In this document: positions 18,979 to 50,845 of the stretch, one piece after another
Layout of the letters: each line of letters starts with the position of its first letter
Numbering within the stretch: position 1 is the first letter of the stretch
From: Armatimonadota bacterium
Lineage (GTDB): Bacteria; Armatimonadota; Hebobacteria; CAIYQO01
Assembly: GCA_029553475.1 (NCBI GenBank)
Contig: JAKPKV010000114.1
Coordinates: 124,001-188,000, forward strand
DNA length: 64,000 nucleotides
Direction: 5' to 3'
The notes under the pieces: generated by a model
The model's input: the letters and a program-made list of their open reading frames with translations, nothing else
Databases searched by the model: none
What the model was told of the DNA's origin: nothing
Translations under genes and position numbers: made by a program

Positions 18979-19542
18979 TCACAGATCGCATTTATAAGCT
19001 TCCAGAACACGCAGGAATGATGAGACATCATGGGCTTTTCCCCGCAGCACGGCCTCATAAATCAGCATGGATGGCATCGAGAGCTCATTGGCCTCGCGCC
19101 GCCATTGCTTGATCTGCAGGATGGTCCTCCGTTGCTCCTCGGTAAGGTGCGCCAGGGCTTCATGGACGGCCAGGTCGCGCGTGGCATCGGTCAGGCACCA
19201 GAGGTCAACTTTCCAGAAGCGACCGCGAAACGACCGCTTGAGGCCGAGGTAGATCCCTGCCGGCAAGTCTTCGCGGGGGAACTGGAGGAAATCTTCATAG
19301 GCGACCCCACGCCAGAATCCCTGGTCAATGAGGGTACTTACGATTTCCCCGGCTTGCATCCGTCCGATCTGGGGGTGGACGATGCAAAGATCAATATCGG
19401 GCACCGCCATCAGCCGGTACTGGTAACTGCCGGTCGGCAGCACCTGCCCGTAGGGCGCCAGCAATTCGAGGAGCGCGGACTCGGCCAGTAGCGCGCTGGC
19501 GTCGCGGTGAAGCTCTTCAGATAAAAGCGTCAAATCACCCAT
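18979..19542 (-). CDS. Nucleotidyltransferase-fold protein
   Basis: The 187-residue protein contains the pol-beta-type nucleotidyltransferase core: LPTGSYQYRL (about 36-45, the G-S loop), then PDIDLCIV (about 49-56) supplying metal-binding aspartates, and a third acidic position at KVDLWCL near 132-138. Related proteins add nucleotides to small molecules or RNA. The substrate cannot be named; aminoglycoside modification is one possibility given the island. GAGGAG precedes ATG 19542, and a separate promoter lies at 19566-19594. It is the last gene of the island. Confidence 0.65.
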   Translation of the reverse strand: MGDLTLLSEELHRDASALLAESALLELLAPYGQVLPTGSYQYRLMAVPDIDLCIVHPQIGRMQAGEIVSTLIDQGFWRGVAYEDFLQFPREDLPAGIYLGLKRSFRGRFWKVDLWCLTDATRDLAVHEALAHLTEEQRRTILQIKQWRREANELSMPSMLIYEAVLRGKAHDVSSFLRVLEAYKCDL

Positions 19543-19565
19543 CCATCACTCCTCTTCTTCTGATC

Positions 19566-19594
19566 GGTATAGGGTTATGCGATCTTTTTATCAA
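19566..19594 (-). promoter_or_regulatory. Predicted promoter for the nucleotidyltransferase gene
   Basis: Minus strand: TTGATA (19594-19589), 17 bases, TATACC (19571-19566), 24 bases before the start codon. This shows that the island is not a single transcript. Confidence 0.45.
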
Positions 19595-19633
19595 ACCTTC
19601 CGATCACGAGCCAACGCGTTTACGTCTTGACAT

Positions 19634-19729
19634 CTACGCGAGAACACGTGCGCGACAGCCAGGCCGACCGCGGCAGACGGTGGATTTTCCCACGCCGTTG
19701 GGGCCGTGGATGACGAGCAGCGTGTTCAT
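19634..19729 (-). pseudogene. Truncated P-loop kinase remnant
   Basis: An ATG at 19729 overlaps the previous gene's stop (ATGA) and encodes MNTLLVIHGPNGVGKST, a textbook kinase N-terminus with a complete Walker A loop. The frame ends after 31 codons. Reading on in the neighbouring frame gives another 20 or so plausible codons before a stop near 19580, so a frameshift or deletion has removed most of a kinase of perhaps 170-200 residues. The start coupling shows it was once a translated operon member. Confidence 0.6.
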
Positions 19730-20256
19730 ACCTTCGATCCCTCGATTTCCGCCAGCCACCGCCGCGTCTCGCCCGGCGAGCGATGGATGAGGATGCGGCG
19801 GCCTTCCCGGTACTCCTCCAGCAGGCTCAGCAGCCGGGGGCGCGTGCGGCGGGGGAAATCCACGCAGATCCATTTGAGAAATGCCCCATCCATGCGTTCC
19901 GGACAGCCGGGCGTCAAATCCGGGCGCGTGCGCCCGTGGTAGATGACTCGTCGCTTCACCACACGCCCCAGGCACAGCCACCAGGGATAATCCAGCACGA
20001 TGACCGTCTCCGCCGCCGCCAGGCGGATCGGCAGTGTGCCGCCGTAATTGCCGTCCATGACCCATCGGTCGCGCCGGGTCAGCTCCTCCACCTTCCGCCG
20101 CCACGCGTCCTTCGGCGTCTCTACCCATCCCGGCTGCCAATTCTCGGCATCCAGGTGAATGACCGGCAGGCCGGTGATCTCCCCCAGTCGGCGCGCCAAG
20201 GTGGACTTGCCCGCGCCGCCGGAGCCGATGATCATGATGCGGTGACCGAGGTGCAT
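19726..20256 (-). CDS. P-loop adenylate-kinase-like protein (FlaR-type)
   Basis: From ATG 20256 the 176-residue product starts MHLGHRIMIIGSGGAGKST, giving a Walker A loop at about residues 11-18. The following LPVIHLDAENWQPGW resembles the 'topology modulation protein' (FlaR) group of small NTPases, whose members read '...H.D...W..GW'. The kinase lid region has R-rich VVKRRVIYHGRTRPD. An upstream in-frame start (20409) adds 51 residues without domain character and was rejected. The physiological substrate of these kinases is unknown. It is coupled to the broken kinase downstream. Confidence 0.7.
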   Translation of the reverse strand: MHLGHRIMIIGSGGAGKSTLARRLGEITGLPVIHLDAENWQPGWVETPKDAWRRKVEELTRRDRWVMDGNYGGTLPIRLAAAETVIVLDYPWWLCLGRVVKRRVIYHGRTRPDLTPGCPERMDGAFLKWICVDFPRRTRPRLLSLLEEYREGRRILIHRSPGETRRWLAEIEGSKV

Positions 20257-20641
20257 GGCAGCAATATCCTTCCCCGTTGCGGGGGCGTCACTATCGTATT
20301 CAACAGCGGTATCCGCGCTTGTCGGGCCTGTCCCGCCGCCTGCCCCGAGGCAATCGTGGATGGCATTCCCGAAGCGGTGCACGGTTGACTCCGCCACCAA
20401 GCCCCGCACTCCGATAAAGGCGGCCTTTTCGCTATTGGGCAGCGGATGTGATCACTTTGCTACTTCTGCAACGCTGAATAATGAGCCTCCTTTCCCTCGG
20501 CAAGTCCGCCCTACTGGGTGAGAGAGGGGCCGATGATGTTACCGGCGGATGATCTGGCCGGGGTGCCAGCAGCGCTGGCGGCGTTGCTGGAGCAGTTTGC
20601 GGGCTATCACCGCTTCATTCGTAGACCAGTGGATGAAACTG
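20257..20641. other. Gap with a short plus-strand ORF start, no recognisable gene
   Basis: This 385-bp region separates two kinase genes. On the plus strand a weak ribosome site precedes an ATG pair (20533, 20536) encoding MMLPADDLAGVPAALAALLE and a few more plausible residues. That frame then runs into the 3' end of the kinase on the other strand. It may be the stump of a deleted gene. Nothing else is evident. Confidence 0.3.
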
Positions 20642-21181
20642 TCAAGGCGTATGCTCCTGTCGGCCATCGACTTGAGATGATAAGCGGCTGTCTATACAGG
20701 CTACCAGCAGGTCTATCTCCTCAGCCAGGGTCTTACCTGTTATATCGCAGACCACTTCATCCGCCGCGAGAGGAACCTGAAGATCCCGATTAATGCGCAG
20801 CGCCTCTTCCCAGTGGCGATACCCGTTGGAACGCGATGGGTCGAGAACACGACGCGTTAGTTCCGCATCATCGCGGATGATCAGTTTGATCGGTAACCGC
20901 TCTTCCGGTGTGGTGGAGGACAATAACCAGGGCAGCAGTCGCAACGTGAAATCGGAGAGGAGAACGATTCGGTGCCCATGCTTGAGATAGTTTCGTCCGA
21001 CCAGCAGCAGCGTATCTGCGGCAATGCGCTCATCCTCTTCGTATGAGATCGCGTTGCCATTTTTCACCAGAAATTCTGGCATCCATGACATCTCGAATGC
21101 CGGACAGCCCATTCGCGCGCTCAGTGCCTGCAATAATGTCGTTTTGCCAATCCCTGGTGCGCCGACCAGCAAGACGATCAT
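20642..21181 (-). CDS. P-loop NTPase/kinase
   Basis: The 179-residue protein begins MIVLLVGAPGIGKTTLL with Walker A GAPGIGKT (7-14). A helix-rich region and a hydrophobic strand HRIVLLSDF (about 70-78) in the Walker B position follow, with a lid-like RVLDPSRSNGYRHW segment near 111-124. Size and motif order fit small cytoplasmic kinases. There is no close family match that names a substrate. GAGGATGATACG precedes the ATG. The nucleotidyltransferase at 21197 ends 15 bp upstream. Confidence 0.65.
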   Translation of the reverse strand: MIVLLVGAPGIGKTTLLQALSARMGCPAFEMSWMPEFLVKNGNAISYEEDERIAADTLLLVGRNYLKHGHRIVLLSDFTLRLLPWLLSSTTPEERLPIKLIIRDDAELTRRVLDPSRSNGYRHWEEALRINRDLQVPLAADEVVCDITGKTLAEEIDLLVACIDSRLSSQVDGRQEHTP

Positions 21182-21196
21182 CGTATCATCCTCTGT

Positions 21197-21844
21197 TTAT
21201 GCATACCTCAGCAATCCATGAAAATGCCGTGCCACCGTCTCCTCGACGGTTTCCTCGGAAGTATCAAGACACCACGCGGGGTGACTCCGCCGCATCGCCT
21301 GGAATTCATCATACCATTGATCGACGTATTCAGGGCCCGCCGTCCAACAGGGGCGCTGTTGATCGCGCTGCAGGCAGATATCACGGCTCGGTGTGAGGAT
21401 GCGGTGCATCCCTCTTTGGCGACCAATCGCCATCTCACGACTCGGGGCATCGACGACCAGACCGCGCGCTTCCAGTACAGCGGGAAGATCACGACCGTAG
21501 AGCCGAATAGCCCGATGACGCACGGCAAAGCGCCAGAAGCTGTCCCCCTCCAGACGCGCCAGGGGATACGGGGTCAGGTGAAAGTCGACCACCGCCGGAT
21601 AGCGGGTGGTGATGTCGCGGGCGAGTTCGCGACACCAAGCCGATTCCTCCTCAGTCGGCTCACCGGTGATGAACATGAACCAATCGACATCCGATACGCC
21701 GGGGAGGGCGTCTCCGGTCATGATGCTTCCGGTCAGGTAGATCGCCAGCAAGCGACCACCGAAATAGGCGATCAACGCTTCCCCCGCTTCAATGAGCGCG
21801 GCACGGTATTCGGCTTGGATGTGTTCGGTGTTAATGAACGGCAT
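21197..21844 (-). CDS. Nucleotidyltransferase, aminoglycoside-adenylyltransferase-like
   Basis: The 215-residue protein has a clear pol-beta nucleotidyltransferase motif: IYLTGSIMTGDALPGVSDVD (about 35-54) with the GS and D-x-D, then VVDFHLT (about 84-90) carrying the third Asp. A C-terminal helical region follows (about 100-215). This order matches ANT(3'')/ANT(9)-type enzymes and related unknown transferases that adenylylate small molecules. Resistance activity is inference. AAAGGG precedes ATG 21844. It sits 12 bp after the GrpB gene on the same strand. Confidence 0.65.
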   Translation of the reverse strand: MPFINTEHIQAEYRAALIEAGEALIAYFGGRLLAIYLTGSIMTGDALPGVSDVDWFMFITGEPTEEESAWCRELARDITTRYPAVVDFHLTPYPLARLEGDSFWRFAVRHRAIRLYGRDLPAVLEARGLVVDAPSREMAIGRQRGMHRILTPSRDICLQRDQQRPCWTAGPEYVDQWYDEFQAMRRSHPAWCLDTSEETVEETVARHFHGLLRYA

Positions 21845-21856
21845 TTGTATGCCCTT

Positions 21857-22402
21857 TCATGCATCCGACGGTCCCGCCGCCCATCCCGACTCCTGCGCCC
21901 AGGCATCGGCCTTTCGCATCATTTCCCAGATGAACGGGCCTTTCGCGTCGGTATAGCCCACCCGGTCGTCACCGTATTGTTCGGCAAGCCGGTACTTCAG
22001 CGCCGCATATCGGACGGCGTCCTCGGGGTGCGAACGCATATAGTCGCGGAAGAGCAGAGCAAATTGCTCAGGCCAACTGCCGGCCCGCCGGACGTGAATA
22101 TGAGTCTGACGCTCCCCCGGCACCTCGCGGAAATAGCGTTTCATCAGATCATCGTTGCCGGCTCGATAGCTGAAGCCAAGGCTTTCGATGGGCAGACGAT
22201 AGGCTTCCAACGGCTCGAAGCTTGCCACGGAAATTTGCACATCGAGAATCGGCTTGGCATCCAGGCCGGGGATCGCCGTGGAGCCAATGTGGTCAATGCG
22301 CAGCGCCACTGGTTTAAGAGCAGCACGCAATGCCGTACCGAGTTCCGCGAATATCTGCGGCCAGGATGCGTCGTATGGGGCAATGATGATACGCTCACTC
22401 AT
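21857..22402 (-). CDS. GrpB (UPF0157) family protein
   Basis: This 181-residue protein carries the family core HIGSTAIPGLDAKPILDVQI (39-58), followed by RTHIHV-like (RQTHIHV near 98-104) and FRDYMRSHPEDAVRYAALK. GrpB proteins adopt a nucleotidyltransferase-like fold, and some are fused to CoA kinase; their reaction is not established. AGGAGAG precedes the ATG, which overlaps the M28 peptidase stop by 4 bp. A second GrpB gene lies at 32425. Confidence 0.9.
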   Translation of the reverse strand: MSERIIIAPYDASWPQIFAELGTALRAALKPVALRIDHIGSTAIPGLDAKPILDVQISVASFEPLEAYRLPIESLGFSYRAGNDDLMKRYFREVPGERQTHIHVRRAGSWPEQFALLFRDYMRSHPEDAVRYAALKYRLAEQYGDDRVGYTDAKGPFIWEMMRKADAWAQESGWAAGPSDA

Positions 22403-23583
22403 CTCTCCTGCCTTTCTGCGGGAGAGAGCATATCACCACTCGCCGCATATGCTGCCGCAGAAAGACTCACCGATCCCAGAAAGTACAGCTTTTGTGGATC
22501 AAGGTTCTCCGGGGTATCATCCGGGAGATGCGGGCATTGCTTGCACGGAGCCTCTACAAGAAACACCGGAATACCGCCTGCGATAAACGATCTGGCATCG
22601 GTTCCACCGCCTTCGGTAATGAAGTGCTCCAGGCCATCGAGCGAAAGGCGTTGGCACGCCCAGAAGTAGGTATCTTCGTCAGATGTATATACCTCAAATG
22701 TGCCGCTTTGTCGTTCGAGACTGGAATCCACGTTCACCAGCAGCTTGATGGCGCTTGGTTCCTCTACACAATCGCGGAGATAGGCCCGGCTGCCGCGGGC
22801 ATCGACTTCCTCACCGGTGAACCAGAGCAATCGGACCGTGCGTGCTGGCGGATGATTGGCAAACCACTTCGCCGCTTCCAGCAGCACCGCACACCCTGCG
22901 GCATCATCCGAGGCGCCGACCGTACCAGGGAAAGAATCCAAATGGGCGCTCATCACCACGATCTCATCCGGCTTTGCAGTGCCGGGTATTTCGGCGACCA
23001 GATTGTGAAATTCACCTTCAACGTTTCGTTCTGTCCACCGCAAGGCCGCCGGCTCACCGAGCGCACTTATCACGAATGGAATGTCTTCCGGTGCGATCAC
23101 GGCAACGGGAATGCGCTGCCTCATTTCCTCCTGTTGCGCCCACAGATACGGCTCCATCTCGGGCTCGAACGGGAATACGATCAACTGCGCCAGCGCATCA
23201 GGCACTATCGGCTGCTCCTGATGATACTCCGTGACGACTGCGATCGTCCCCGGACCATCGTCCGCACGGCCTAACTCCGCCTGCACGTCAACCTGCCGTG
23301 CTTCATCGCTGTGGAAATCGATGCCATAGCGGAACGACGGCTCCATTGCAGGTTGCACAGCGATCTTCCTTCCGCGCACGAGCAGATGCGGGTCATCGGT
23401 CGTAACCCACTGATCGCGAAAGGTGTGCAGACGCCAACCAACCCCCAACGCGTCTAATCGCCGTACGAGAATATCCAGGCCACGTCGCTCTCCATCCGAA
23501 CCGCACACACGGATGAAATCAAGGTCACAGATCGTCTGCAGCGCGGATTGGGTATCGAAATCCGCAATAGTGCCTTTCGTCAT
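22399..23583 (-). CDS. M28-family zinc aminopeptidase
   Basis: The 394-residue protein has the M28 di-zinc set: SAHLDSFPGTVGASDDAAG near 209-227 (His, Asp), TGEEVDARGS near 252-261 (Glu pair) and a late His in PHLPDDTPEN. An inserted PA-like domain occupies about 75-180. Such enzymes remove N-terminal residues from peptides or process small amide-linked compounds. No signal peptide is visible, so it is cytoplasmic, unlike many M28 enzymes. ATG 23583 is preferred over 23598 because GAGG lies 5 bases before it. Confidence 0.85.
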   Translation of the reverse strand: MTKGTIADFDTQSALQTICDLDFIRVCGSDGERRGLDILVRRLDALGVGWRLHTFRDQWVTTDDPHLLVRGRKIAVQPAMEPSFRYGIDFHSDEARQVDVQAELGRADDGPGTIAVVTEYHQEQPIVPDALAQLIVFPFEPEMEPYLWAQQEEMRQRIPVAVIAPEDIPFVISALGEPAALRWTERNVEGEFHNLVAEIPGTAKPDEIVVMSAHLDSFPGTVGASDDAAGCAVLLEAAKWFANHPPARTVRLLWFTGEEVDARGSRAYLRDCVEEPSAIKLLVNVDSSLERQSGTFEVYTSDEDTYFWACQRLSLDGLEHFITEGGGTDARSFIAGGIPVFLVEAPCKQCPHLPDDTPENLDPQKLYFLGSVSLSAAAYAASGDMLSPAERQER

Positions 23584-23605
23584 AAGATCCTCGTGCATGC
23601 TATCG

Positions 23606-23959
23606 CTACCTCAAGCTTGTGCCCAGCCACAGCTTCAGAATACCCTCCGCACGGCAGAGGCGCAGCATCTCCTCCATCAGCGCCGTGCCGATGCCCCGGC
23701 GTCGATAGGCTGGCAATACGTCGATCTCATGCAGATACACCGCCTGGTCCCGGTCGATCCGTGCCAACCGATACGCCAGCACAAAGTCGACCACGCCGCC
23801 GTCCGCCGTGGCCACGATCAGGTAGTGGCTGTTATCCACGAGAAAGCGCGCCAGGTATGCTTCGGTCACCGGTGGGGAGGCCGTGCCATCCTTCACGCGG
23901 GTCACGGCTTCCACAGTCAGGTGGCCATCGTCAGGCTGGAGAGGCTGTACGCTGAACAT
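23606..23959 (-). CDS. GNAT acetyltransferase, AAC(3)-I-like, C-terminally short
   Basis: From ATG 23959 the product is 117 residues. The core resembles the AAC(3)-I aminoglycoside acetyltransferase group: a long N-terminal arm, FVLAYRLARIDRDQAVYLHE, and the acetyl-CoA loop VLPAYRRRGIGTALM near 83-97. Full-length relatives continue for about 35 residues with a final strand-helix unit. Here the frame stops at LGTSLR directly after the beta strand, so the enzyme is probably truncated and may be inactive. The longer upstream open frame overlaps the methyltransferase and is rejected. Confidence 0.65.
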   Translation of the reverse strand: MFSVQPLQPDDGHLTVEAVTRVKDGTASPPVTEAYLARFLVDNSHYLIVATADGGVVDFVLAYRLARIDRDQAVYLHEIDVLPAYRRRGIGTALMEEMLRLCRAEGILKLWLGTSLR

Positions 23960-23970
23960 ACCCAACTCCT

Positions 23971-24789
23971 CTACGGCATCTCGGGTGAGTTGTCGATGCA
24001 GGTAATAGCGTCGCCTAACCGCCAGTACGTATGGAATTCGGGATGCACACAGTGCGTGCGGTGCGCCCATGAGCCGGGCACTGGAGGCTCATCGTCATAG
24101 GTCCACTCGGTAAGTCGCAGGAAGTGAAAGCCGGCATCAACCATAGTATTCATCATAGTAGACAAGTTATGGCGGAACACGTGCGGGAAGGGGACGGCAG
24201 TCATGCGGCCATCCGGCTGTTCGACATCCCAGGTGGGATGGAAGTAGTGGGTCACCTCCTCACCGTCAATGCATAGGCCGCGCAGGGGATAGCCCTCACC
24301 ATTCCAATCACCGAGGGCCGCGAAGTCGGGATTCGCGAAGGTGAGGTAGTAGAGCCCACCTGGGCGCAGCACGCGCGCCGCCTCGCGGATGACCGGCTCG
24401 GCCTCTGGACAATAATTGATGGAATACTCCTGCCAGACGATATCGAACGAGGCATTCGTGAACATGGAGAGATCGCGCATGTCACCCTGCACGGTCGTCA
24501 CTTGGTAACCATGATGCGCCGCAGCTTCGCGATCACGTGCCAGTTGCGTGTCAGAGAGATCTAATACGGTGACGACCGCCCCCAGCAGTCCGAATGCCGC
24601 CGAATCCTGGCCTCCGCCGCTGGCCAGGCAGAGCACATGTCGGCCCGATACGTCAGGAATGAAGGGAAAACGGTAGATGTGTCGTGCGGCATCCTCGCGC
24701 GTGAAATCGAGGAACGGCACGGTATGGTGTACCCGCGCCTCGGCGAGCGCATTCCAACGGTCGCGATTGTCGGTGAGAATGGGGTCCAT
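23971..24789 (-). CDS. SAM-dependent methyltransferase
   Basis: This is a class I methyltransferase of 272 residues. Motif I VLCLASGGGQDS lies near 52-63, an acidic motif II VTVLDLSDTQL near 72-82, motif III VQGDMRDLSMF near 101-111, and DIVWQEYSINYC then AARVLRPGGLYYLTF supply the later strands. The unusual 'ASGGGQ' glycine loop is seen in a subgroup of uncharacterised methyltransferases. The ATG at 24789 is chosen because AGGAGGTG directly precedes it. The substrate is unknown. The GNAT gene starts 11 bp downstream. Confidence 0.8.
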   Translation of the reverse strand: MDPILTDNRDRWNALAEARVHHTVPFLDFTREDAARHIYRFPFIPDVSGRHVLCLASGGGQDSAAFGLLGAVVTVLDLSDTQLARDREAAAHHGYQVTTVQGDMRDLSMFTNASFDIVWQEYSINYCPEAEPVIREAARVLRPGGLYYLTFANPDFAALGDWNGEGYPLRGLCIDGEEVTHYFHPTWDVEQPDGRMTAVPFPHVFRHNLSTMMNTMVDAGFHFLRLTEWTYDDEPPVPGSWAHRTHCVHPEFHTYWRLGDAITCIDNSPEMP

Positions 24790-24862
24790 TTCACCTCCTC
24801 TGTCACTGAAGATACCGGCCATGCGTATATCCCGCAGGCGCACCAGTTCGTGCGGCGTTTGC

Positions 24863-25432
24863 TTATGCCTGGGCCGCGAACTCGTCGTACGTCAGGCCGT
24901 AGAGGATCTCATCCCAGTAGCGGCCGTCCGTGTAGACGGTTTGGCGGCGGCGACCTTCCTCACGGCAGCCCACTTTCTTCAACATGGTGGCAGAGGGGAT
25001 GTTCCCCTCCAGCACGCTGCCGTTGTATTTATGCAGCCGGCGCTCGAAGAAGGCATAGCGCAGCACCAGGCGCATGGCCGCAGTGCCGTAGCCCTTGCCG
25101 CGGTGGTCGCGGTCGATCTGCATGCCGATGCTGAAGGTGCCGTTTCGTTCATCAACGCTGTTCAGGTTTACCACGCCGACATTCTCACCCTGCAGGTTCT
25201 CGATGATGAAGAAGATGATGTGCCCAGCGCCCTCGGTAAATTCTTTGTACCGCTCAGTGAACGCGCGTGCCTCCACCTCGGTGGGCGGTAGCTCGACCAG
25301 GTAATTTTCCAGCCGGTATGCCGGGGTGTCGAAGCGGTTGTCGTAGTATGATTCCCAATCGTCTGCTGTAACGGCCCGCAGGCGCACCAGCGTGTTTTGC
25401 CAGAAATAGGTGTCATCGTTGATGGGCTTCAT
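24863..25432 (-). CDS. RimJ/RimL-type GNAT acetyltransferase
   Basis: The 189-residue protein transfers acetyl from acetyl-CoA to an amine. Features are LVRLRAVTADDWESYY at the N-terminus (15-30), a central sheet GENVGVVNLNSVDE, the acetyl-CoA loop IDRDHRGKGYGTAAMRLVLR (about 105-124) and the C-terminal NIPSATMLKKVGCREEGRRR. The last part matches the RimL group ('N..S..ml.k.GF..eG..r'). The acceptor is unknown; a protein N-terminus or an antibiotic amine are the usual options. AGGAGGTCGAACCG precedes ATG 25432. Confidence 0.88.
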   Translation of the reverse strand: MKPINDDTYFWQNTLVRLRAVTADDWESYYDNRFDTPAYRLENYLVELPPTEVEARAFTERYKEFTEGAGHIIFFIIENLQGENVGVVNLNSVDERNGTFSIGMQIDRDHRGKGYGTAAMRLVLRYAFFERRLHKYNGSVLEGNIPSATMLKKVGCREEGRRRQTVYTDGRYWDEILYGLTYDEFAAQA

Positions 25433-25555
25433 CGGTTCGACCTCCTATACTGTATCGGTTGTTGGTCGCGTGGTGCTCAATTTGACCTTTCTTACGCAGC
25501 AGACACCCCTGTGGAATGAACCTGGCGAAATGTGCGTCAGCAGAGAGCAATGATG

Positions 25556-26917
25556 TCAGGCTATCAGCGGCAGGATATTCTCCTCGATAGCGCAAATCTG
25601 CAATAACACCTCACCATACGGCCGTAACAGATCTTTGTCGCTGAACATCTCCTTTGCGGAGAAATCCTGTGGGATCAGCTGCCCCAGTGTTACAGACAAT
25701 GCGGCGATTTGCGCATAACACTCGGCCAGATCATCCCGTCCGTGATCGCGGAAGAACGCCACCGCATACTGCCGGTCAAGGTATTGCTTATAGTTACACA
25801 TGACATTGAGATACGGCTCAACATTGTCCTCCCAAGTATAGTGCAACAACGCATGGGCGAAAGCCTTGTGGGCGGCAAGCCCGTTATATTGACCCGGGAC
25901 CAGATTCTCTTCCCGGATGAGGCGGGCGATCAGCGTGCGTGTTTCCGCAAAGAGAGTTGCTTTGTCGGGCTTCGCACACTGCCCTTCAATAATGAGGATG
26001 CGTCCCTGGTTGTTGGCGAAGAAGCCGTTGTGCCAGTCGGACTTCCTGAAATACCCCGTGTCATCCGGCACTTCCTGGTGGTCGTCTTCCACATACATGA
26101 ACGGATTGTAACCAAGCAATACACGCCCGTCGTGGTCATACCCGGAGATCACACATGCGTCGGCGCAGTTCATCACCCCTTCAAGCGTAATGACGGGGAA
26201 CCCTCGGTCGATGCTGTCCATAATCAGCCGGCTATCGGCTTCATACTCACCCCGCAGGTGCTGCGATACCCGGTACCCCAGCATGGTGAAGGTATGCTCA
26301 ATAATCGGCGGTGTATTGATCACATGGTAGTTGCCATGATGCCATTGGGTGACCGACGGCATGGAGAAAGAGGTACGGAAGGCGCTGCCCGACACCGCGC
26401 AGACATAATCGTAGTCCACAGTCTCGCCCAGGGCAGTGAGTGCTGAGACGACGCTGTTGACGAACTCGTTTTGCCGCTGTGTATCCGACCAATCCACCTT
26501 CAACAAGCCGGGTATCAGGTTGCGCCTCATGGTAAATCCTCCCGAAATTCGCACAGCGATCTTCATGGGAGCAAATCGTTGAAGACCTGATATTGACACA
26601 GCAACCTTTGAGGGGGCACATCCGAACAGGCGCTTGAATGCTTTCGAGAAGGCTTCCACCGTTTCGTAGCCACATTCAAACGCCATGTCTGTCACCGAGC
26701 AGTCGCCATGCTCAAGTTTCTCCGCCGCCCACGACAACCGCCGAAAGCGAATGTATTCACCGACGGAGTATCCGGTCATCGCGCTGAAGAGACTGGAAAA
26801 CGAAGATGGCGCGTAGTGAATCGCCTCCCCCACAGACTCAGCGGAGATGTTCTCGAACAGATTCTCCTCGATATACCCAATCGCTTCCTGTACTTTGTCA
26901 ACCCAGGTCAAAATCAT
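25556..26917 (-). CDS. AraC-family regulator with a C39/BtrH-like C-terminal domain
   Basis: From ATG 26917 (GGGAGGCG immediately upstream) the 453-residue protein begins with an AraC DNA-binding domain (about 1-110): the AESVGEAIHYAPSSFSSLFS helix-turn-helix and the second motif VTDMAFECGYETVEAFSKAF. The remaining 300 residues hold a domain with 'SIDRGFPVITLEG', 'CVISGYDHDGRVLLGYNPF' and a His/Trp-rich stretch, the layout of C39-like/BtrH N-terminal domains of the papain-like fold. It may sense a small molecule or peptide and regulate neighbours. 123 bp follow before the next gene. Confidence 0.75.
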   Translation of the reverse strand: MILTWVDKVQEAIGYIEENLFENISAESVGEAIHYAPSSFSSLFSAMTGYSVGEYIRFRRLSWAAEKLEHGDCSVTDMAFECGYETVEAFSKAFKRLFGCAPSKVAVSISGLQRFAPMKIAVRISGGFTMRRNLIPGLLKVDWSDTQRQNEFVNSVVSALTALGETVDYDYVCAVSGSAFRTSFSMPSVTQWHHGNYHVINTPPIIEHTFTMLGYRVSQHLRGEYEADSRLIMDSIDRGFPVITLEGVMNCADACVISGYDHDGRVLLGYNPFMYVEDDHQEVPDDTGYFRKSDWHNGFFANNQGRILIIEGQCAKPDKATLFAETRTLIARLIREENLVPGQYNGLAAHKAFAHALLHYTWEDNVEPYLNVMCNYKQYLDRQYAVAFFRDHGRDDLAECYAQIAALSVTLGQLIPQDFSAKEMFSDKDLLRPYGEVLLQICAIEENILPLIA

Positions 26918-27062
26918 CGCCTCCCATGCGTGCCAGCTTAGCAGATACGGGAAAGAAATACCTGTCAGAACCAATGAATTTTTGTCCACGTAGCCTCATG
27001 GCGTATGTGCATTTTGAAGAGTTGCCAATCGCGCAGATGCTCCTGCACAACGGGCTGGTCCT

Positions 27063-27566
27063 TCAGTAGGTATCATCCACCGTGGGATGCTTCAACACCT
27101 TCTCCATGACGCACACCGTAAACGGCAGACACGGAAATCGCTTGGTGCCGGTAATGACGAACCCTTGCCGCGCATACCACTGCTTCAACACCGTATTCTC
27201 GTCAACAATGCCGATGCACGCCTTCTCCCCACCTAGCCGGAGAATTTCCTCGCAGGCAAAAGTCATCAGTTTCGCACCGAATCGCCGGTGGCGATATGCC
27301 GGCAACACGGCCAGCTTCTCAATCGAAAAGGCGCCGGGAGATTCCCGCTTGATGCCGACGACACCCCCCAGCACATCGCCGGCGAAATACCCGGATAGCT
27401 GCAGACCGGCGTCAACCTGTGCCTGCAGATGCGCCTCGCTGAGGAAGGCCGGGTGGGAAGGGCAGTTCTCCGGCGTCAGGCCAAACTCGTCCGCGACGGT
27501 GCGGAAAGATTGGCGGATGACGTCCGCGGCAGCAGAGAGTGTATCGTGAGCTAATGGATGAATCAT
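27063..27566 (-). CDS. GNAT acetyltransferase
   Basis: From ATG 27566 (AAGGAG 6 bases upstream) the 167-residue protein has FSIEKLAVLPAYRHRRFGAK near 80-99 containing the acetyl-CoA loop, a following helix LMTFACEEILRLGG, and GIVDENTVLKQWYARQGFVI near 116-135 as the C-terminal strand-helix-strand. A phenylalanine replaces the usual glycine in the RRxxG loop (RHRRFG), which is mild variation. The ending KRFPCLPFTVCVMEK is common among uncharacterised single-domain GNATs. The start lies inside the end of the gene at 27586 by frame but does not overlap it. Confidence 0.82.
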   Translation of the reverse strand: MIHPLAHDTLSAAADVIRQSFRTVADEFGLTPENCPSHPAFLSEAHLQAQVDAGLQLSGYFAGDVLGGVVGIKRESPGAFSIEKLAVLPAYRHRRFGAKLMTFACEEILRLGGEKACIGIVDENTVLKQWYARQGFVITGTKRFPCLPFTVCVMEKVLKHPTVDDTY

Positions 27567-27585
27567 CTGCACTCCTTGTATGCAG

Positions 27586-28431: not shown

Positions 28432-28484
28432 ATCGTGATCCTGTGTAGGCGGTACTATATAAATTGAGAAGGGGGTGTGAACCG

Positions 28485-41494: not shown

Positions 41495-42012
41495 CGCAAT
41501 GCTTTCCGCATCAAGGCAAACTCGTCATGGTACACCAGTGAGATCAACGTATATCCGCTGTTCCGCCAGAACGATACCGGTCCGGAAGGGTTATCGGCGC
41601 TATTCATCCGGGCAATCGTCTCAACAGCGGTGAACCCGTCGTTGCTGGCTTGCTCTTCAACCCTTGCGCGCAATCGTTGACCGAGACCCTGTCCCTGCAT
41701 GGAAGAAGCAATATGTAAGCAGGCGATCAGCAGGGAGTCCGGCGAAACCTCTCCACACTGATACTCGCGGAGCATCGGAAAGAAGGGCGAGGCGGCAAAA
41801 TGGCAGAACCCCACCGGTGTTTCGTTGACATAGGCCACAAATCCCCAGGCAGTGACTCCACCGCGCTTACGTATCCATTTCTGCTTCAGCGATGTTGCTC
41901 GCTCGATGTCAGGACGCGTTTTAAATATTCGCGGGTGCTCCCAGTACAGGCAGGCTTGGCACATGCTGGGGAGCCGCGATGCAGCGGTATACGGTTCAAT
42001 GCGATATGCCAT
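41491..42012 (-). CDS. GNAT acetyltransferase
   Basis: From ATG 42012 the 173-residue protein has 'AWGFVAYVNETPVGFCHFAA' as the core sheet, SLLIACLHIASSMQGQGLGQ near 101-120 containing the acetyl-CoA loop, and a C-terminal NSADNPSGPVSFWRNSGYTL near 144-163. The N-terminus carries 'CQACLYWEHPRIF', a Cys-rich start seen in a distinctive GNAT subgroup. AAGGAG lies 12 bases before the ATG. The target is unknown. The stop overlaps the HAD start by 4 bp, so it is coupled to it. Confidence 0.82.
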   Translation of the reverse strand: MAYRIEPYTAASRLPSMCQACLYWEHPRIFKTRPDIERATSLKQKWIRKRGGVTAWGFVAYVNETPVGFCHFAASPFFPMLREYQCGEVSPDSLLIACLHIASSMQGQGLGQRLRARVEEQASNDGFTAVETIARMNSADNPSGPVSFWRNSGYTLISLVYHDEFALMRKALR

Positions 42013-42082: not shown

Positions 42083-42617
42083 TCATGCCCCCTCCAGGTC
42101 AATCCAGTATCGCGCGTGCGGCGGCCCCGTCTCGGGATGCGTGCCGTCGGTATCCCGCACGCCGCCGTTTTTCACAATCACGCGCGCGGAGGCGTGGTTG
42201 TCCAGATTGCAGGTGAGCAGCACGCGGCGCAATCCCAGCGCGCGCGCTTTCTGCAGCGCCAGCCCCAGCATGCGGGTGGCCACCCCGCGCCCCCGCGCCG
42301 ATGGACGCACCGCATACCCGATATGCCCGCCGTAATGCTCGAGATTCGGGGTGAGGCGGTGGCGCAGCTTGAGCACACCGACCACCTGCCCGCCGCACAC
42401 CGCCCAGTAGACATGCTGCGGCACGGCCCAAGTCCGGCAACCCTTCGCCCCTTGACTCGCGGTGTAACTGCGCCACGAACCCGGCAAAATCATCGCCGGG
42501 CAGGCGGTAAAACGTCTCTGGTTCACTGCGCTCGATGAACTCGGCGAGATAGGCGTGATATTCTTGTTCGAGAACGGTGGTCGGACCCACCAGTTGCAGC
42601 GCGTTTTCGGTATCCAT
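42083..42617 (-). pseudogene. GNAT acetyltransferase broken by a frameshift
   Basis: Two overlapping frames encode the two halves of one GNAT. The first, from ATG 42617, gives MDTENALQLVGPTTVLEQEY then FYRLPGDDFAGFVAQLHRES to about LPD near 42437. The second continues in another frame: WAVPQHVYWAVCGGQVVGVL, 'LEHYGGHIGYAVRPSARGRG' with the acetyl-CoA loop, and the ending PPHARYWIDLEGA at 42083. Neither alone is complete, and joining them at about 42430 (two bases missing or one extra) restores a typical protein of about 177 residues. It could be decay or a sequencing error. Confidence 0.85.
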
Positions 42618-42622
42618 GTATG

Positions 42623-43402
42623 TCATATCCTCTCTGGCTTTGTCAGCATGAGCAAACTCGCCCCATACGCCACAAACCCCACGCTCCGCGCCGTGGCGAT
42701 GGAGGCGCTGTTGTCAATATCACAGGTGTAGCGCACCTCGCCCCCCGTGCGCGTACAATGCGCCACCAGCGCGGTGACGGCCGTCCGGGCATAACCGCGT
42801 CGGCGATACGGCTCCGCGGTACAGACGGCGATATCGGCCACCCGATCCGGCATCGTGGCCGTGCGATGGGCATACGCGATGGCGACCACCATTTCATCGG
42901 CCATCACGCCATAGGCCACGCCTTCTTCGATGCATTGCGGCGGCCACCAGAGCCCCTCGGCGTGCGGCAGCGTCACCTCGGTAAGCCGCCGGCAATCGCC
43001 GGCGGCAGCCCGCCGCAGCAAGTCGGCGTTGCCGGCAAAACAACGATCGGCGAACACCCCATGCGTTCCCGGCAATCCCGCCTCACGCAGTACGCGGTCA
43101 ATCACCCGTCGCAGCGCCGCTGCCAGGGCAGGATCATACACCAGGCATGGGTCCGTGATGCCGGTCACCAGCGCCGCCACCTCCCGCCCGGCCCCCGGCG
43201 GCACGCTCACCACCGACCGCCCATCCGCCAGCCACACCCACCACAGTGCGCGGACATACGAAAAATGTTCCTCCGCAACCAGGCGCAGCGGCGTCTCCAC
43301 CACCGCCGTCTGTCCCGGTGGAATTGCCGAGAAGTCGCAATCAAAGCGAAGGGAGAGCTGCCGGTCGCTGAGCGGGAATGGGGTATTAGCGCCGTTCATC
43401 AT
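42623..43402 (-). CDS. Two-part GNAT acetyltransferase (FR47-like)
   Basis: From ATG 43402 (or the next codon, 43399) the protein is about 259 residues. The N-terminal half (1-130) is a diverged GNAT-like region. The C-terminal half has VADIAVCTAEPYRRRGYART near 185-204 and YTCDIDNSASIATARSVGFV near 225-244. The last segment matches the copies at 34314 and 36194, indicating a related subfamily in the island. The 14-bp overlap with the APH-like gene upstream supports this start over the longer open frame from 43621. Confidence 0.82.
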   Translation of the reverse strand: MMNGANTPFPLSDRQLSLRFDCDFSAIPPGQTAVVETPLRLVAEEHFSYVRALWWVWLADGRSVVSVPPGAGREVAALVTGITDPCLVYDPALAAALRRVIDRVLREAGLPGTHGVFADRCFAGNADLLRRAAAGDCRRLTEVTLPHAEGLWWPPQCIEEGVAYGVMADEMVVAIAYAHRTATMPDRVADIAVCTAEPYRRRGYARTAVTALVAHCTRTGGEVRYTCDIDNSASIATARSVGFVAYGASLLMLTKPERI

Positions 43403-46586: not shown

Positions 46587-47291
46587 TTATCGTTCCCTTC
46601 CCACCACGCTCATCCGCCGGCAGCGCCGGGTGTAGAACCCGCCGTCGCGGTCGCCATAGATCGCTTTCACCTTCAGGCCGGCGTCCGCGAAGAGCCGCCG
46701 GAACTGCGCCAGGGTGTAGAGGCGCATGGAGGATGCGAAGCCCGGCTGGCCGGCATCGCTGGTCCACTCGGTGATAATGCGCTGGGTGGCAGTATCCCAG
46801 CGCGTGCGGCTGACCCATTCGCCGACCTGATTCGTCGCGATGAAGTGCCGCAGAATATACTCCCGGTTCGGCTGCTCGATGAGCAGGCGTCCGCCCGGTG
46901 CCAGCGCCGCCGCCATCCGGTGCAGCACATCGGCGTTCTCCTCATCGCTGAAGTAGCCGAAACTGCCGCCCCAGTTGTAGATCGCCTCGAACGCCGCAAC
47001 GTCGTCCAGCGCGCGCATGTCCAGCACGCGGAATGTGCCGTCCACTCCCTCGCTGGCAAAGCGCCGTCCCGCCCGCGCGATGAAGTTCGGGTTGCGATCA
47101 ATGCCGGTCACCCGGCAGCCCGCCTCCGCCAGGTGCACCGCCACCCGCCCGGCGCCGCAGGGGATATCGAGCACGCGCATGCCCGGCTGCAGCGCCAGCG
47201 CCTGTCGGATGAAGCGCGCCTCATCCTCTCCGGTCGCATCGGACTGGAGCCAGTGGCTTTCACTATACAGGTCAATCCATTCCGTCATCAT
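46587..47291 (-). CDS. SAM-dependent methyltransferase
   Basis: Class I methyltransferase of 234 residues: GMRVLDIPCGAGRVAVHLAE near 36-55 (motif I), 'CRVTGIDRNPNFIARA' near 58-73 (motif II), 'GTFRVLDMRALDDVAAFEAI' with the acidic motif III, and AAALAPGGRLLIEQPNREYI near 126-145. A C-terminal beta region (RIITEWTSDAGQPGFASSMR) precedes 'LKVKAIYGDRDGGFY'. The ending and size are common in methyltransferases of unknown small-molecule specificity. AAGGAGACG precedes the ATG, and the start overlaps the previous GNAT by 20 bp. Confidence 0.88.
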   Translation of the reverse strand: MMTEWIDLYSESHWLQSDATGEDEARFIRQALALQPGMRVLDIPCGAGRVAVHLAEAGCRVTGIDRNPNFIARAGRRFASEGVDGTFRVLDMRALDDVAAFEAIYNWGGSFGYFSDEENADVLHRMAAALAPGGRLLIEQPNREYILRHFIATNQVGEWVSRTRWDTATQRIITEWTSDAGQPGFASSMRLYTLAQFRRLFADAGLKVKAIYGDRDGGFYTRRCRRMSVVGRER

Positions 47292-47778
47292 CGTCTCCTT
47301 GTTGCGTGATGAATTCCTGCATCGGTCCCTGCCACCGCGCGTTCACCTGCCTGGTCGTCTCGGTGTATTGGCCGCCGGTATACGCCGCGATCACCGTCCG
47401 CCAGAAGGCCTGTGCGGGCAGGTTGCATGCTTCCTGCGCCACCTGCCACCGTCCCGGAAACCTGGCGAAGATGCGGTGGGCGGCGTCACGCCCGATCCCC
47501 TGGCGGCGGTACTTCCGCAGGATGAAGAACTCGGCCATCTCGTAGACGGCCTCATCGGTCTGCCGCACCAGCGCAAAGCCGGCAAGGTGCCCAGCGACGC
47601 GAATGAACAATGGATGCCGTCTCTCCTCTGTCCAGTAGTGATCGAGATACCGGTAGCCGAACAAGCCGTGTTCGTCAACGTTAGCCTCGTTATATTCGCT
47701 GTAGTCGTGCTGGCACAGTTCCATCAAGTTGCGCAGCACGGCCTTCTGCGCATAGGGGATTGGCGCTAGGTCAATCAT
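47272..47778 (-). CDS. GNAT acetyltransferase
   Basis: From ATG 47778 (GGAGGCCAAGCG upstream) the 168-residue protein has AVLRNLMELCQHDYSEYNEA near the start, 'LFIRVAGHLAGFALVRQTDE' as the core, MAEFFILRKYRRQGIGRDAA near 82-101 as the acetyl-CoA loop and 'ACNLPAQAFWRTVIAAYTGG' near 122-141 as the closing helix. This N-terminal motif (LcqhDYSE) marks a recurrent GNAT subgroup. It overlaps the CHAT-like gene stop by 8 bp and is probably translated with it. The target is unknown. Confidence 0.86.
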   Translation of the reverse strand: MIDLAPIPYAQKAVLRNLMELCQHDYSEYNEANVDEHGLFGYRYLDHYWTEERRHPLFIRVAGHLAGFALVRQTDEAVYEMAEFFILRKYRRQGIGRDAAHRIFARFPGRWQVAQEACNLPAQAFWRTVIAAYTGGQYTETTRQVNARWQGPMQEFITQQGDDDDGMD

Positions 47779-48370
47779 CGCTTGGCCTCCAGAGTTGAAA
47801 CCGTCCGCACTCCGCATCAAACGTGCGTGCCTTCGCCACGGCTTCCATCAACGGCATCTTCATCCAGAACCCATAGAAGAGATGGATGGCGAAAAGCAGC
47901 GCTGAGGCGCCTTCCACCTCACCAACGGGCGCAATGTAGGCCCGGCACTCTCCGGCCAGGAAATTCGCGGCAATAGCTTCGCTCCCCGTGCCGCACCCCA
48001 GGTTGAGAACGAGGCGGTTGGGCAGGGTGATTGCGGTCTGCGCCAGCGGGATGCCCGGCTCACCCGGCACCAGCATCGCCCCCTCACCATCGCCGTGGCA
48101 CGACAAAATCACATACGGGAACGTCACGATGTTCCCCCGCAATATCTCCAATACTTCCTGGCGCGAACCCACCCATTGCACTTCGACACGATAGTTGAAA
48201 CGCTCTAGCACGCTTCGTAAGGCCATCGCTTCCAACGCATCGGCGATGGCAATGAGAGAGATGGCTTCTTTACGCACGTGCGGCACTTCCCAAGGAATAT
48301 CCATTGTCTTCCTTTGCGCCTGAAACGCCCGTCCATTTTGTTCCCACCACTGTTTCACGATTTCCCGCAC
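47771..48370 (-). CDS. Minimal CHAT-like (caspase-fold) protein
   Basis: The 199-residue product starts at GTG 48370 (GGAGGAGAAAACC upstream; TTG 48400 is the longer option). It has a His in PYVILSCHGDGEG (His92) and a Cys in RLVLNLGCGTGSE (Cys126). LAGECRAYIAPVGEVEGASA and 'MKMPLMEAVAKA' follow. The order strand-SCHG...strand-xxCxTG...'ARAyIap...EA...AR' is the CHAT/caspase-like peptidase core with its catalytic His-Cys dyad. Here it stands alone without TPR or NACHT partners. Protease activity is inference; small stand-alone members could instead be sensors or inactive. Confidence 0.62.
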   Translation of the reverse strand: MREIVKQWWEQNGRAFQAQRKTMDIPWEVPHVRKEAISLIAIADALEAMALRSVLERFNYRVEVQWVGSRQEVLEILRGNIVTFPYVILSCHGDGEGAMLVPGEPGIPLAQTAITLPNRLVLNLGCGTGSEAIAANFLAGECRAYIAPVGEVEGASALLFAIHLFYGFWMKMPLMEAVAKARTFDAECGRFQLWRPSDD

Positions 48371-48401
48371 GGTTTTCTCCTCCGTATCTTGTTCCGCCAA
48401 G

Positions 48402-49304
48402 TCACGCTGACAAAGAGGAAGCGTCTATCGCCTGTTGCAGCCGCACTGCAAATTCACCACTCACCACGTGCCTTACGCATCCCTTGGCCCATCCCGGCCA
48501 TTGCGGCAATTGCGCCGCCACGTGCAGGGAGTAGAGCAGCGAAAGCGGCGCATCCAATACCGCGACACGCTCGTCTACCGGGCCATACGTCTCGCTGAAT
48601 GCGGCGCGCGCACGTTCACCGAGCGATCCGAGCACATTGCGGAGATCGCAGTAGGCGGGCCCGATGCCCAGCAAGTGATAGTCAAAGACAAGGGCGCGCA
48701 GCGGCTCCCCGCGCGAGAGCGCCAGGTTCGTCCAATGAAAATCGTTGTAGTTCAGCGTTTCTGGATACGCACGGAACGCTTGTACCAACCGATCGAGATG
48801 TTCTGCGGCAGACCGCCAGACCGGAAGATGCGATAAGCCCAACCGCTCACCGGTGTCCATCACGGATTCGGGCGTGAGGGAAGCGACCTCGCGCGTGAGA
48901 AACGCCGGGATCCCTGCTCGCACAATCCGTTCCCCGGCGGTATGCAGCGCGGTATACCAGGCGGCCACCGCAATGCCGGTCTTCTCACGTTCGATATCCT
49001 CCGCCGTTGCCAATCGCCATGCTGTGCTTGCGGCCAGGTCTGCCATCAGCAAGGCCCGTTCCGACATCCCATACACCGGGAGCGTCGGCACGCCATACCG
49101 CTGAAGCAGGCGAGAGGCAGCGAGTTCGCGAGCAGTGGTGTCGTTGAACAACTTCAACACCGATGACGATCCGACATGAGTGATGCGGTACAGCGCATGT
49201 TGGTCTTTCTTCACGATCAATGCGACAGCTGTCACATCGGTTGAGATCATCCCCAGCTCAGTAAGGGCGGCAATGACCGTAGGTGTATCATACGTGCTTT
49301 CCAT
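48402..49304 (-). CDS. Aminoglycoside-phosphotransferase-like kinase
   Basis: The 300-residue protein has SSSVLKLFNDTTARELAASR near 46-65 with the ATP-site Lys. The catalytic loop ETLNYNDFHWTNLALSRGEP (about 180-199) contains the NDxHxxN-like NYNDFHWTN, and ALVFDYHLLGIGPAYCDLRN near 202-221 supplies the metal-binding Asp. A Leu/Ala-rich helical cap lies between. The catalytic Asp is present but the surrounding motif is diverged from classical HGD, so it belongs to an APH-like subgroup of unknown substrate. GAGGAG precedes ATG 49304. The CHAT-like gene follows. Confidence 0.8.
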   Translation of the reverse strand: MESTYDTPTVIAALTELGMISTDVTAVALIVKKDQHALYRITHVGSSSVLKLFNDTTARELAASRLLQRYGVPTLPVYGMSERALLMADLAASTAWRLATAEDIEREKTGIAVAAWYTALHTAGERIVRAGIPAFLTREVASLTPESVMDTGERLGLSHLPVWRSAAEHLDRLVQAFRAYPETLNYNDFHWTNLALSRGEPLRALVFDYHLLGIGPAYCDLRNVLGSLGERARAAFSETYGPVDERVAVLDAPLSLLYSLHVAAQLPQWPGWAKGCVRHVVSGEFAVRLQQAIDASSLSA

Positions 49305-49346
49305 TGTCACACTCCTCTGCCGAATGTATAACATCCGCCACTGCCA

Positions 49347-50114
49347 TCATCGCCTCCGCAATACCACCATATTATCGTTGGAGAGCCTCCGCAACGGCTC
49401 CGGGCTCTCCCGCTCGAAGTATCCCACCAAGTCAAATGCCCCTGCCAATTCGACCAGGCTGATGAATTCCTGCGGAAAGAAGAAGGGCACGACGCACACT
49501 TCTGACAGCCGCACCGACTGCCCATGGTCATCCACCGCAAACTCCAGCGTGTGCCGGGCGGTTTGCGCCAGCGGATCGAGCACGTCCAGTTGATAATGGG
49601 TGGTGACGGTAATGCCGTCCCGCGTCATCACCCAATCCTGCCGGTTCCCCACGACGGCGCTCACCCAATCCATCAGCAGGTTCTCGATGAGATACAGCCC
49701 GCCGGGGCGCAGCGCCCGGGCCACGCACGCCAGGTGGTCGAGCATCCCCTGGCGGCTCCCGACGTAGGGGATGGTGCCCAGCAGGATATAGCAGACGTCA
49801 ACCGGCGCGGGCAGGGCGAAATCCCGCATGTCGGCGCAGATCGTCTCCACCCGCACCTGCTCCTCCGCCGCCCGCGCGTGCAGATAGGCGAGCATCGGCG
49901 GGCTGGCGTCCAGCCCGACCCCCAGATATCCCCGGCGGGCGAACTCGCGCAACTGCGGCGACGGCCCACAGCAGACATCCAGCACGCGCCGCACCGGGAT
50001 GGCGCTGTACGCCCGGATGTAGGCCTCCAGCAGGGCGATCTGCCGCGGAATATTGACGAAGCCCATGGCAATCTCGTAATACGCGGCATGCTGGTAGACT
50101 TCAGATGGTGTCAT
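49347..50114 (-). CDS. SAM-dependent methyltransferase
   Basis: Class I methyltransferase of 255 residues: VRRVLDVCCGPSPQLREFAR near 41-60 (motif I with a CCGPS loop), YLGVGLDASPPMLAYLHARA near 63-82 (motif II), ETICADMRDFALPAPVDVCY near 90-109 and 'LACVARALRPGGLYLIENLL' near 128-147. A C-terminal beta region includes QLDVLDPLAQTARHTLEFAV. GGGAGGCAGCGC precedes the ATG. It overlaps the stop of the first gene of the array by 4 bp, so the two are translationally coupled. Confidence 0.86.
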   Translation of the reverse strand: MTPSEVYQHAAYYEIAMGFVNIPRQIALLEAYIRAYSAIPVRRVLDVCCGPSPQLREFARRGYLGVGLDASPPMLAYLHARAAEEQVRVETICADMRDFALPAPVDVCYILLGTIPYVGSRQGMLDHLACVARALRPGGLYLIENLLMDWVSAVVGNRQDWVMTRDGITVTTHYQLDVLDPLAQTARHTLEFAVDDHGQSVRLSEVCVVPFFFPQEFISLVELAGAFDLVGYFERESPEPLRRLSNDNMVVLRRR

Positions 50115-50845
50115 GCGCTGCCTCCCTGTGCCGGCCGCGCCTTCCGGCACCAGTAGCGCGCCAGCATGCCGTCAGGATACTCCGCCCGCTCGATGACGAA
50201 GCCCGCGCGGGTGAGCACGCCTTCCATGATCCAGTCACAGGTACTGAACTCTTCGCGGAAGGCCGTCGCCACCTCCTGGCCGAACTCCTCGCCGGCGTTC
50301 CGGGCGAACCGGGCCACTGTCTCCGCCATGAAGCGCGCGTAGTCGGGCGGCGGGAAGCTGTAGACGGTATCCATCAGGTAGCACAGGCCATCGTCCCGCA
50401 GCATCCCGGCGAGGCGCCGCAGGCCGACGAGTTTCCAGAAATCCGGCAGATGATGGAGTGCCGCCATGCTCACCAGCACATCGGCGGGCGGACCATCATG
50501 CGTATACGTCAGGAAACCGCCCTGGCGGAATGTCGCCCCGGTCACCCCGGCCGCGTCCGCTTTCCGCCGCGCGACGGCCAGCATCGCCGGCGAGACATCC
50601 ACGCCATAGGCGATCACCCCACGCCGGGCAGCCTGAATCGCCAGGTTGCCAGAACCACAGCCGACGTCGAGCAAGCTGTGCCCCGCGCGCACGCCCAGGG
50701 CATCCAGCAACCGGTCGGCCTCCGCCGCCAGGTCACCGCGGAAGCGTTGGTGCCGTGCGTCATACTCCTCGGCGACCTGCGGATCAGCGTAATCAACGCC
50801 GACGTGACGGCATTCATCATACTGCCAGGCTGGTATGCGATTCAT
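50111..50845 (-). CDS. SAM-dependent methyltransferase, first gene of the minus-strand array
   Basis: The 244-residue protein has 'VRAGHSLLDVGCGSGNLAIQ' near 52-71 (motif I), 'GVIAYGVDVSPAMLAVARRK' near 76-95 (motif II), 'FRQGGFLTYTHDGPPADVLV' near 103-122 and LAGMLRDDGLCYLMDTVYSF near 142-161. It has the general layout of UbiE-like small-molecule methyltransferases. ATG 50845 has GGAGGCAGCAGG upstream, directly after the U-tract of the intrinsic terminator at 50860-50898. Its expression should therefore depend on read-through of that terminator. Confidence 0.86.
   Translation of the reverse strand: MNRIPAWQYDECRHVGVDYADPQVAEEYDARHQRFRGDLAAEADRLLDALGVRAGHSLLDVGCGSGNLAIQAARRGVIAYGVDVSPAMLAVARRKADAAGVTGATFRQGGFLTYTHDGPPADVLVSMAALHHLPDFWKLVGLRRLAGMLRDDGLCYLMDTVYSFPPPDYARFMAETVARFARNAGEEFGQEVATAFREEFSTCDWIMEGVLTRAGFVIERAEYPDGMLARYWCRKARPAQGGSA

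Follow-up and report, generated by a model that had tools for sequence, protein, structure and literature searches.

A putative ribosome-sensing attenuator heads an expandable array of small-molecule-modifying enzymes in Armatimonadota

What gathers dozens of small-molecule-modifying enzymes into one interval of a bacterial genome, and what decides when they are read? The question is raised by a 64,000-nucleotide stretch of contig JAKPKV010000114.1 (positions 124,001 to 188,000; hereafter the window) from an Armatimonadota metagenome-assembled genome (MAG), in which 41 genes, identified by gene calling and Pfam, lie between ftsW and an ABC-2 permease gene. An earlier note on this DNA had proposed a chemical-defence or modification island that grew at one end. 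It overlooked an attenuator leader at the 5' end of the array, which is the best clue to function. We propose that a ribosome-sensing transcription attenuator drives the leader-proximal, larger part of an expandable array of small-molecule-modifying enzymes, with general translation stress as its cue, and put the probability of this reading at roughly two in three.

Leader anatomy and proposed mechanism

The comparison within the order covered three genomes: the host (G000), UR.bin144 of the same genus (G001) and DeMMO6_22 of the same family (G002). All genomes compared are MAGs; completeness is 78% in G001, whose array interval is nonetheless contiguous. The features that frame and control the array are as follows.

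51041-52132, minus strand: ABC-2 permease gene, the conserved flank on the leader side
51000-51028, minus strand: array promoter, TTGACA-N17-TATTGT (10/12 match), kept in G001 (L017) despite a different downstream gene
50931-50987, minus strand: leader open reading frame (ORF) of 18 codons, MYTCQRSNTHIVIGTWET*, retained in G001 and G002
50917-50925, minus strand: antiterminator arm 2, GCATCCGGG, complementary to arm 3
50881-50889, minus strand: arm 3, CCCGGATGC, used by both antiterminator and terminator
50858-50898, minus strand: intrinsic terminator hairpin with a 14-bp stem and T-run
29923-50845, minus strand: distal block of about 28 genes that follows the attenuator, from the methyltransferase at 50111-50845 through the ECF-sigma/HEAT gene at 29923-31968
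28454-28513: back-to-back promoters between 28643 (plus) and 28431 (minus), 11/12 and 10/12 matches
18979-28431, minus strand: proximal gene block with its own promoter, encoding kinases, nucleotidyltransferases, GrpB, M28, GNATs, a methyltransferase and an AraC regulator
17599-18798, minus strand: ftsW, conserved flank

The promoter-to-terminator set is the best in the array, and its terminator is the best terminator-like site there. No further strong promoter or terminator was found on the same strand inside the distal block, which is predicted to be read as one transcript. In G001 the promoter, leader ORF, arm 2 and terminator are all kept, and the array then begins with a different gene. 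The homologous leader ORFs read MYTCQQSEIHIVVVTWET in G001 and MHTSTMSEMHIAVCITWET in G002, and gaps in their alignment are nearly all multiples of 3.

In the mechanism we envisage, RNA polymerase would start at the promoter at 51028 and transcribe the 18-codon leader ORF. A ribosome translating the leader to its end would cover arm 2 just past the stop codon, whereupon arm 3 would pair with arm 4 and transcription would end ahead of the first enzyme gene. A ribosome stalled within the leader would allow arm 2 to pair with arm 3, blocking the terminator so that the operon is read. The cue would most likely be general translation stress, caused by antibiotics or by loss of charged tRNA, and the enzymes would most likely inactivate or repair the small molecules responsible for that stress. 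The array changes along its length, by single-gene insertion, decay and loss, and we propose as the reason that any new reading frame placed behind the leader would gain regulated expression immediately.

A leader family with two kinds of cargo

Related leaders were sought by DNA search and then with covariance models, which recovered 17 full-length leaders in the three genomes, set apart by a score gap from E=4e-13 to 6e-4. An ATG leader ORF of 16 to 21 codons is present in all 17 and a clear promoter in 16. In the terminator, 93 to 96% of alignment cells are paired and covariation exceeds that of 500 of 500 shuffles. The antiterminator formed by arms 2 and 3 is paired in 98% of cells across 13 leaders, and over all 17 the two arms of one leader fit each other better than permuted arms do in 4999 of 5000 trials. 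The family thus combines a promoter and leader ORF, an intrinsic terminator before the first gene and an antiterminator overlapping that terminator.

Seven of the 17 leaders precede amino-acid genes, whose products were identified by eye from sequence: three thrS, two ileS and two 2-isopropylmalate/citramalate synthase-like genes. Host examples lie at G000:C159:100853-100971 (ileS), G000:C107:5689-5807 (2-isopropylmalate/citramalate synthase-like) and G000:C52:15461-15587 (thrS), with homologues in G001 and G002. Each type carries a cognate codon run (VTTTRRP* before thrS, TIIIGITWGP* before ileS, IIDITWEP* before the synthase-like gene), and because these runs match the downstream product they identify the predicted device as ribosome-mediated transcription attenuation.

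The other ten leaders precede modifying enzymes: the array described here (array I) in all three genomes, a methyltransferase in G002, a second array (array II) in all three genomes, and an orthologous single GNAT, again in all three. When these ten were examined for the cognate run expected of an amino-acid attenuator, no consistent run was found. Since there is no such run, and since the peptide varies between relatives, the array leader probably reads general translation stress rather than the supply of one amino acid. In the array-II leaders and two single-GNAT leaders (L043, L081, L082, L042, L044) the ORF begins 6 nucleotides (nt) past the -10 box, and these ORFs may be translated from leaderless RNA.

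On inspection, the RLR arrest motif was absent from all 17 f1 leaders and from the leaders, described below, of f2 to f4, three other families of the class. An I/V-rich motif is confined to the array-I leaders. Its likeness to the I-[AF]-V-[IV] motifs of erm leaders was considered as a sign of an Erm-type arrest peptide and is retained as a lead only, the residues differing between relatives. No leader reached the gathering score of an Rfam family, and a permissive scan of the window leader gave chance matches only. Across the phylum, the first model found, beyond the class, nothing but weak matches and likely ordinary ilvB-type attenuators. Two of these attenuators in other Armatimonadota, L085 (G053:C4) and L088 (G132:C2), have a leader ending ...LLALLGLLLIIGPT* before an acetolactate-synthase-like gene and are probable ilvB attenuators.

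Array II varies in the same manner. In the host (G000:C120) the leader is followed by about nine genes, NUDIX and RNase HIII, and in G001 (G001:C160) by one gene and RNase HIII. An AbiEi/AbiEii pair closes array II in G002 (L082:11285-12900, G002:C370).

Beyond the order, leaders that are unrelated in sequence but alike in logic stand before GNAT/methyltransferase clusters in families f2 to f4 of the class, with ORFs that end in LPAG or a similar motif. In class-mates G085 and G010 (f2) the promoter is followed by a longer ORF (MKKSRQS...LPAGPP*, MIRISRQS...LPAGPP*), arm pairings 1:2 and 2:3 and a 3:4 terminator, and GNAT clusters lie behind. With these two leaders as the basis of a model, six more were recovered at E<=1.1e-4 (families f3 and f4). 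The first gene is a GNAT behind all six, with methyltransferases next in several, and a seventh match, in G104 (E=1.9e-4), precedes a methyltransferase/HAD cluster. Switches of this kind stand before acetyltransferase genes throughout the class, which makes an inducible store for chemical defence the probable role of the array. We are evenly divided on the wider proposal that Armatimonadota of this class keep modifying enzymes in expandable operons behind ribosome-stall attenuators, drawn from at least two unrelated leader families of which one is shared with amino-acid genes, as a cis-encoded counterpart of the WhiB7 regulon built by single-gene capture.

Gene turnover in the array

The genes that allow the array to be followed between relatives are listed below.

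46587-47291, minus strand: methyltransferase, the first gene behind the leader in G001 (80.6% nt identity to L017:10822-11515)
42083-42626, minus strand: GNAT present in the arrays of G000, G001 and G002; compared with G001, the window copy has a frameshift
41491-42012, minus strand: inserted GNAT that separates GNAT 42083 from HAD 40868; a remnant of the HAD start lies 5' of it
40868-41494, minus strand: HAD hydrolase, also in the G002 array (84% nt identity)
36194-37075, minus strand: FR47-type GNAT, also in the G002 array (74% nt identity)
28643-29893, plus strand: DUF1835-like gene (82% amino acid identity in G002, where its divergent arrangement with the orphan is kept)
27586-28431, minus strand: orphan protein encoded in each of the three arrays and without a Pfam family (86% amino acid identity in G002, 62-63% in G001)
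19726-20397, minus strand: P-loop protein common with G001 (83% nt identity), followed by a remnant of a kinase that G001 has intact

In G001 the interval between ftsW and the permease is a single contig of about 4 kb with six genes, and both flanks have 88 to 91% nt identity to the window. The earlier note's picture of a collected island holds, and the content of the island is variable. Four genes (methyltransferase 46587, GNAT 42083, the orphan and P-loop 19726) are common to the window and G001 in the same order and lie scattered along the window array; of the other two G001 genes, a HAD and a kinase, the window has no intact copy. The G002 array adjoins leuS and a tyrosine recombinase gene, while the G002 contig with ftsW has no array genes, and the neighbourhood of ftsW is therefore not essential to the array. 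Five G002 genes are nevertheless collinear with the window: GNAT 42083, HAD 40868, GNAT 36194, the DUF1835-like gene and the orphan, whose only named relatives are in the two order-mates. The recombinase (L097:8274-9281, G002:C370) is directly upstream of the G002 array leader, and none stands beside the G000 or G001 arrays.

The collinearity of these common genes indicates an old array with turnover along its length, and growth at one end, as the earlier note had supposed, is rejected. One gain can be polarized: GNAT 42083 and the HAD gene are adjacent in G002, whereas the window has GNAT 41491-42012 between them, flanked 5' by a HAD-start remnant (ATGAGGCAGACC...CATCATCTTCGAC) and 3' by the intact HAD start. 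One loss is also visible, in the kinase that is intact in G001 and survives as a remnant behind 19726 in the window. Turnover is thus dispersed, as collinear genes, insertion scar and kinase remnant agree. The array therefore predates the divergence of the two genera; of the copies compared, that in the window is the largest. The frameshift in GNAT 42083 may reflect decay or an assembly error. A second copy of this gene lies 66 kb downstream of the array leader (G000:C186:240335-240855, L021; 74% nt identity), matching in two frames.

Array content and composition

Most of the earlier note's description of the array itself was borne out. Pfam finds 14 GNAT genes (15 domains), six class I methyltransferases, two APH-like kinases, two GrpB proteins and one each of NUDIX, formyltransferase, HAD, flavin reductase and M28. 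Every array gene except 28643-29893 is on the minus strand, junctions are mostly overlaps or gaps of less than 20 bp, and no mobility genes were found in the array. The 32-kb array (0.6% of 5.27 Mb) holds 15 of the genome's 40 GNAT matches, where about 0.24 would be expected. Its GC content is about 0.60 overall (0.55 to 0.64 in most of it) against 0.67 to 0.74 (about 0.68) in the flanks, and GC at third codon positions (GC3) is mostly 0.60 to 0.84 against 0.85 to 0.95.

Four further families on the earlier list fared less well: the radical SAM match is weak (22.2 bits, under the cut-off); one nucleotidyltransferase (21197-21844) is backed by Pfam while the other (18979-19542) was judged by eye only; and the ASCH (32969-33445) and CHAT (47771-48400) candidates have no Pfam match. 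Absent from that list were P-loop kinases at 19726, 20642 and 37033, an AraC-type regulator at 25556, and the following gene.

29923-31968, minus strand: ECF sigma factor fused to HEAT repeats

This gene has a more core-like GC3 than its neighbours and is convergent with the DUF1835-like gene. The formyltransferase exceeds the NCBIfam PurN cut-off. A second PurN above the cut-off lies at G000:C177, so the array gene is an extra copy, and the idea of a trapped core gene was rejected. In a PDB sequence search, two nucleotidyltransferase-like proteins and one APH gave no match, and the double GNAT matched RimL-like and MccE acetyltransferases. A role of these enzymes in chemical defence is plausible.

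Upstream of the permease are a MazE/AbrB-type antitoxin gene (52379-52621) and a likely toxin gene (about 51978-52382), with no homologous DNA there in G001. A 324-bp element at 52854-53177, with a short internal inverted repeat, recurs on the same contig at G000:C186:218904-219207 (L020) with 90% identity.

Weighing the alternatives

Several points weigh against an attenuator that answers to general translation stress. The proposal is a prediction from MAG sequences. The window and G001 leaders differ at five codons, each time with a change of amino acid, and because of this no specific arrest peptide is evident. Evidence for arm 1 in the f1 leaders is weak, at most suggestive. The proximal third of the array (18979-28431), having its own promoter, is probably outside attenuator control. 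Among 20 proteins scanned (19 from the window, one from G002), PurN alone exceeded an NCBIfam cut-off, and none passed a resistance model. The f2-f4 leader and its first GNAT are probably one ancestral linkage and not independent events, though the persistence of that linkage across families argues for function. Finally, array-I leaders hold two or three or more Ile/Val codons (HIVIG, HIVVV, HIAVCI, HIVVIS) where ileS leaders have Ile runs.

This last point leads to the strongest rival, in which the leader is an Ile/Val amino-acid attenuator and the array would act in nutrient limitation or metabolite repair, not in antibiotic defence. Leaders of this same family stand before ileS and 2-isopropylmalate/citramalate synthase-like genes and control them, and metabolite repair is conceivable for NUDIX, PurN, HAD and GrpB. 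Unlike the thrS and ileS leaders, however, the array-II and single-GNAT leaders (NILLLC, TFRLY, NTPWFY, AWTIRH, AWIARH) and the LPAG-type leaders have no common amino-acid run, and the enzyme content of the array resembles the antibiotic-induced WhiB7 regulon. We consider this explanation unlikely, though it is the one to be taken most seriously.

Somewhat less probable still is a passive accumulation site, in which horizontally acquired single genes gather in an interval that tolerates them, the leader being incidental and belonging to one operon. Low GC, gene remnants, shifting content and the lack of a common junction signal would all fit. Against it, the leader is better conserved than the cargo at two loci, all ten leaders of that group precede modifying enzymes, the cargo is strongly skewed to few enzyme types, and the G002 array retains its leader at a different locus.

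An integron-like or recombinase-driven cassette array would likewise show single-gene gains and losses behind a leading promoter, and the tyrosine recombinase upstream of the G002 leader could be read in its favor. However, a search for attC-like R''/R' pairs returned none against 1.7 expected, no repeat is shared by the junctions (no 9-mer is enriched there), and where genes overlap there is no space for such sites. Genome-wide, no integron integrase exceeded the TIGR02249 cut-off, and no recombinase adjoins the G000 or G001 arrays. The earlier note had itself seen no recognizable attC, and integron cassettes, their attC-type sites already largely refuted, were rejected as very improbable. 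A biosynthetic gene cluster for a secondary metabolite is the least credible candidate: radical SAM, methyltransferases, GNATs and a nearby ABC permease recall one, but no synthase, scaffold or precursor gene was found, GNAT paralogues are many, and the congener lost most of the content yet kept the order.

Comparison with known systems

Leaders that sense stalling have been described ahead of individual resistance genes or of a gene for a regulator. In the open-access literature we found no paper on such attenuator-controlled arrays in Armatimonadota. If the attenuator proposed here is real, the same logic extends to long arrays of shifting content, made up of GNATs, methyltransferases and kinases, in a phylum that has received little study. 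Its leader RNAs would then mark, from sequence alone, which GNAT and methyltransferase genes without an assigned substrate answer to translation stress, and would offer a testable reason for gene gathering, namely that a frame comes under regulation as soon as it lands behind the leader.

Integron cassette arrays are alike in having one promoter and variable single-gene cargo, rich in accessory enzymes and mostly on one strand; unlike them, the array here has no attC and no integrase and changes along its whole length. Attenuators of the thr/ilv/trp type are alike in that the same leader RNA family controls thrS, ileS and the synthase-like genes with cognate runs, whereas the array leaders lack a consistent cognate run and precede modifying enzymes. 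The toiL leader of topAI-yjhQP in E. coli detects antibiotics of several classes through stalls at different codons, which demonstrates general translation-stress sensing (PMC12121999), also proposed for whiB7 (PMC10727445); toiL, however, works via the ribosome-binding site and Rho, not an intrinsic terminator. With hflXr/rli80 of Listeria and vmlR of Bacillus the array shares a short leader ORF, alternative terminator and antiterminator, and a resistance gene or putative counterpart downstream (PMC6310831, PMC9226507). The switch ahead of hflXr is of the same type (PMC6310831), but a single resistance gene follows in each case, and the hflXr leader has an RLR arrest motif that the array leaders lack.

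A further likeness is to whiB7/wblC of Actinobacteria, in which a leader ORF and terminator sense antibiotic-stalled ribosomes (PMC10727445). Leader ORF, intrinsic terminator and antiterminator are common to both systems, as are the types of enzyme encoded downstream, the WhiB7 regulon of M. abscessus containing GNATs, an APH and methyltransferases (PMC10727445). The two leaders are unrelated in sequence, and antibiotic sensing by the array leader is a prediction. The systems also differ in layout: whiB7 encodes a regulator that acts in trans on scattered genes, whereas the array attenuator directly precedes the enzyme genes themselves.

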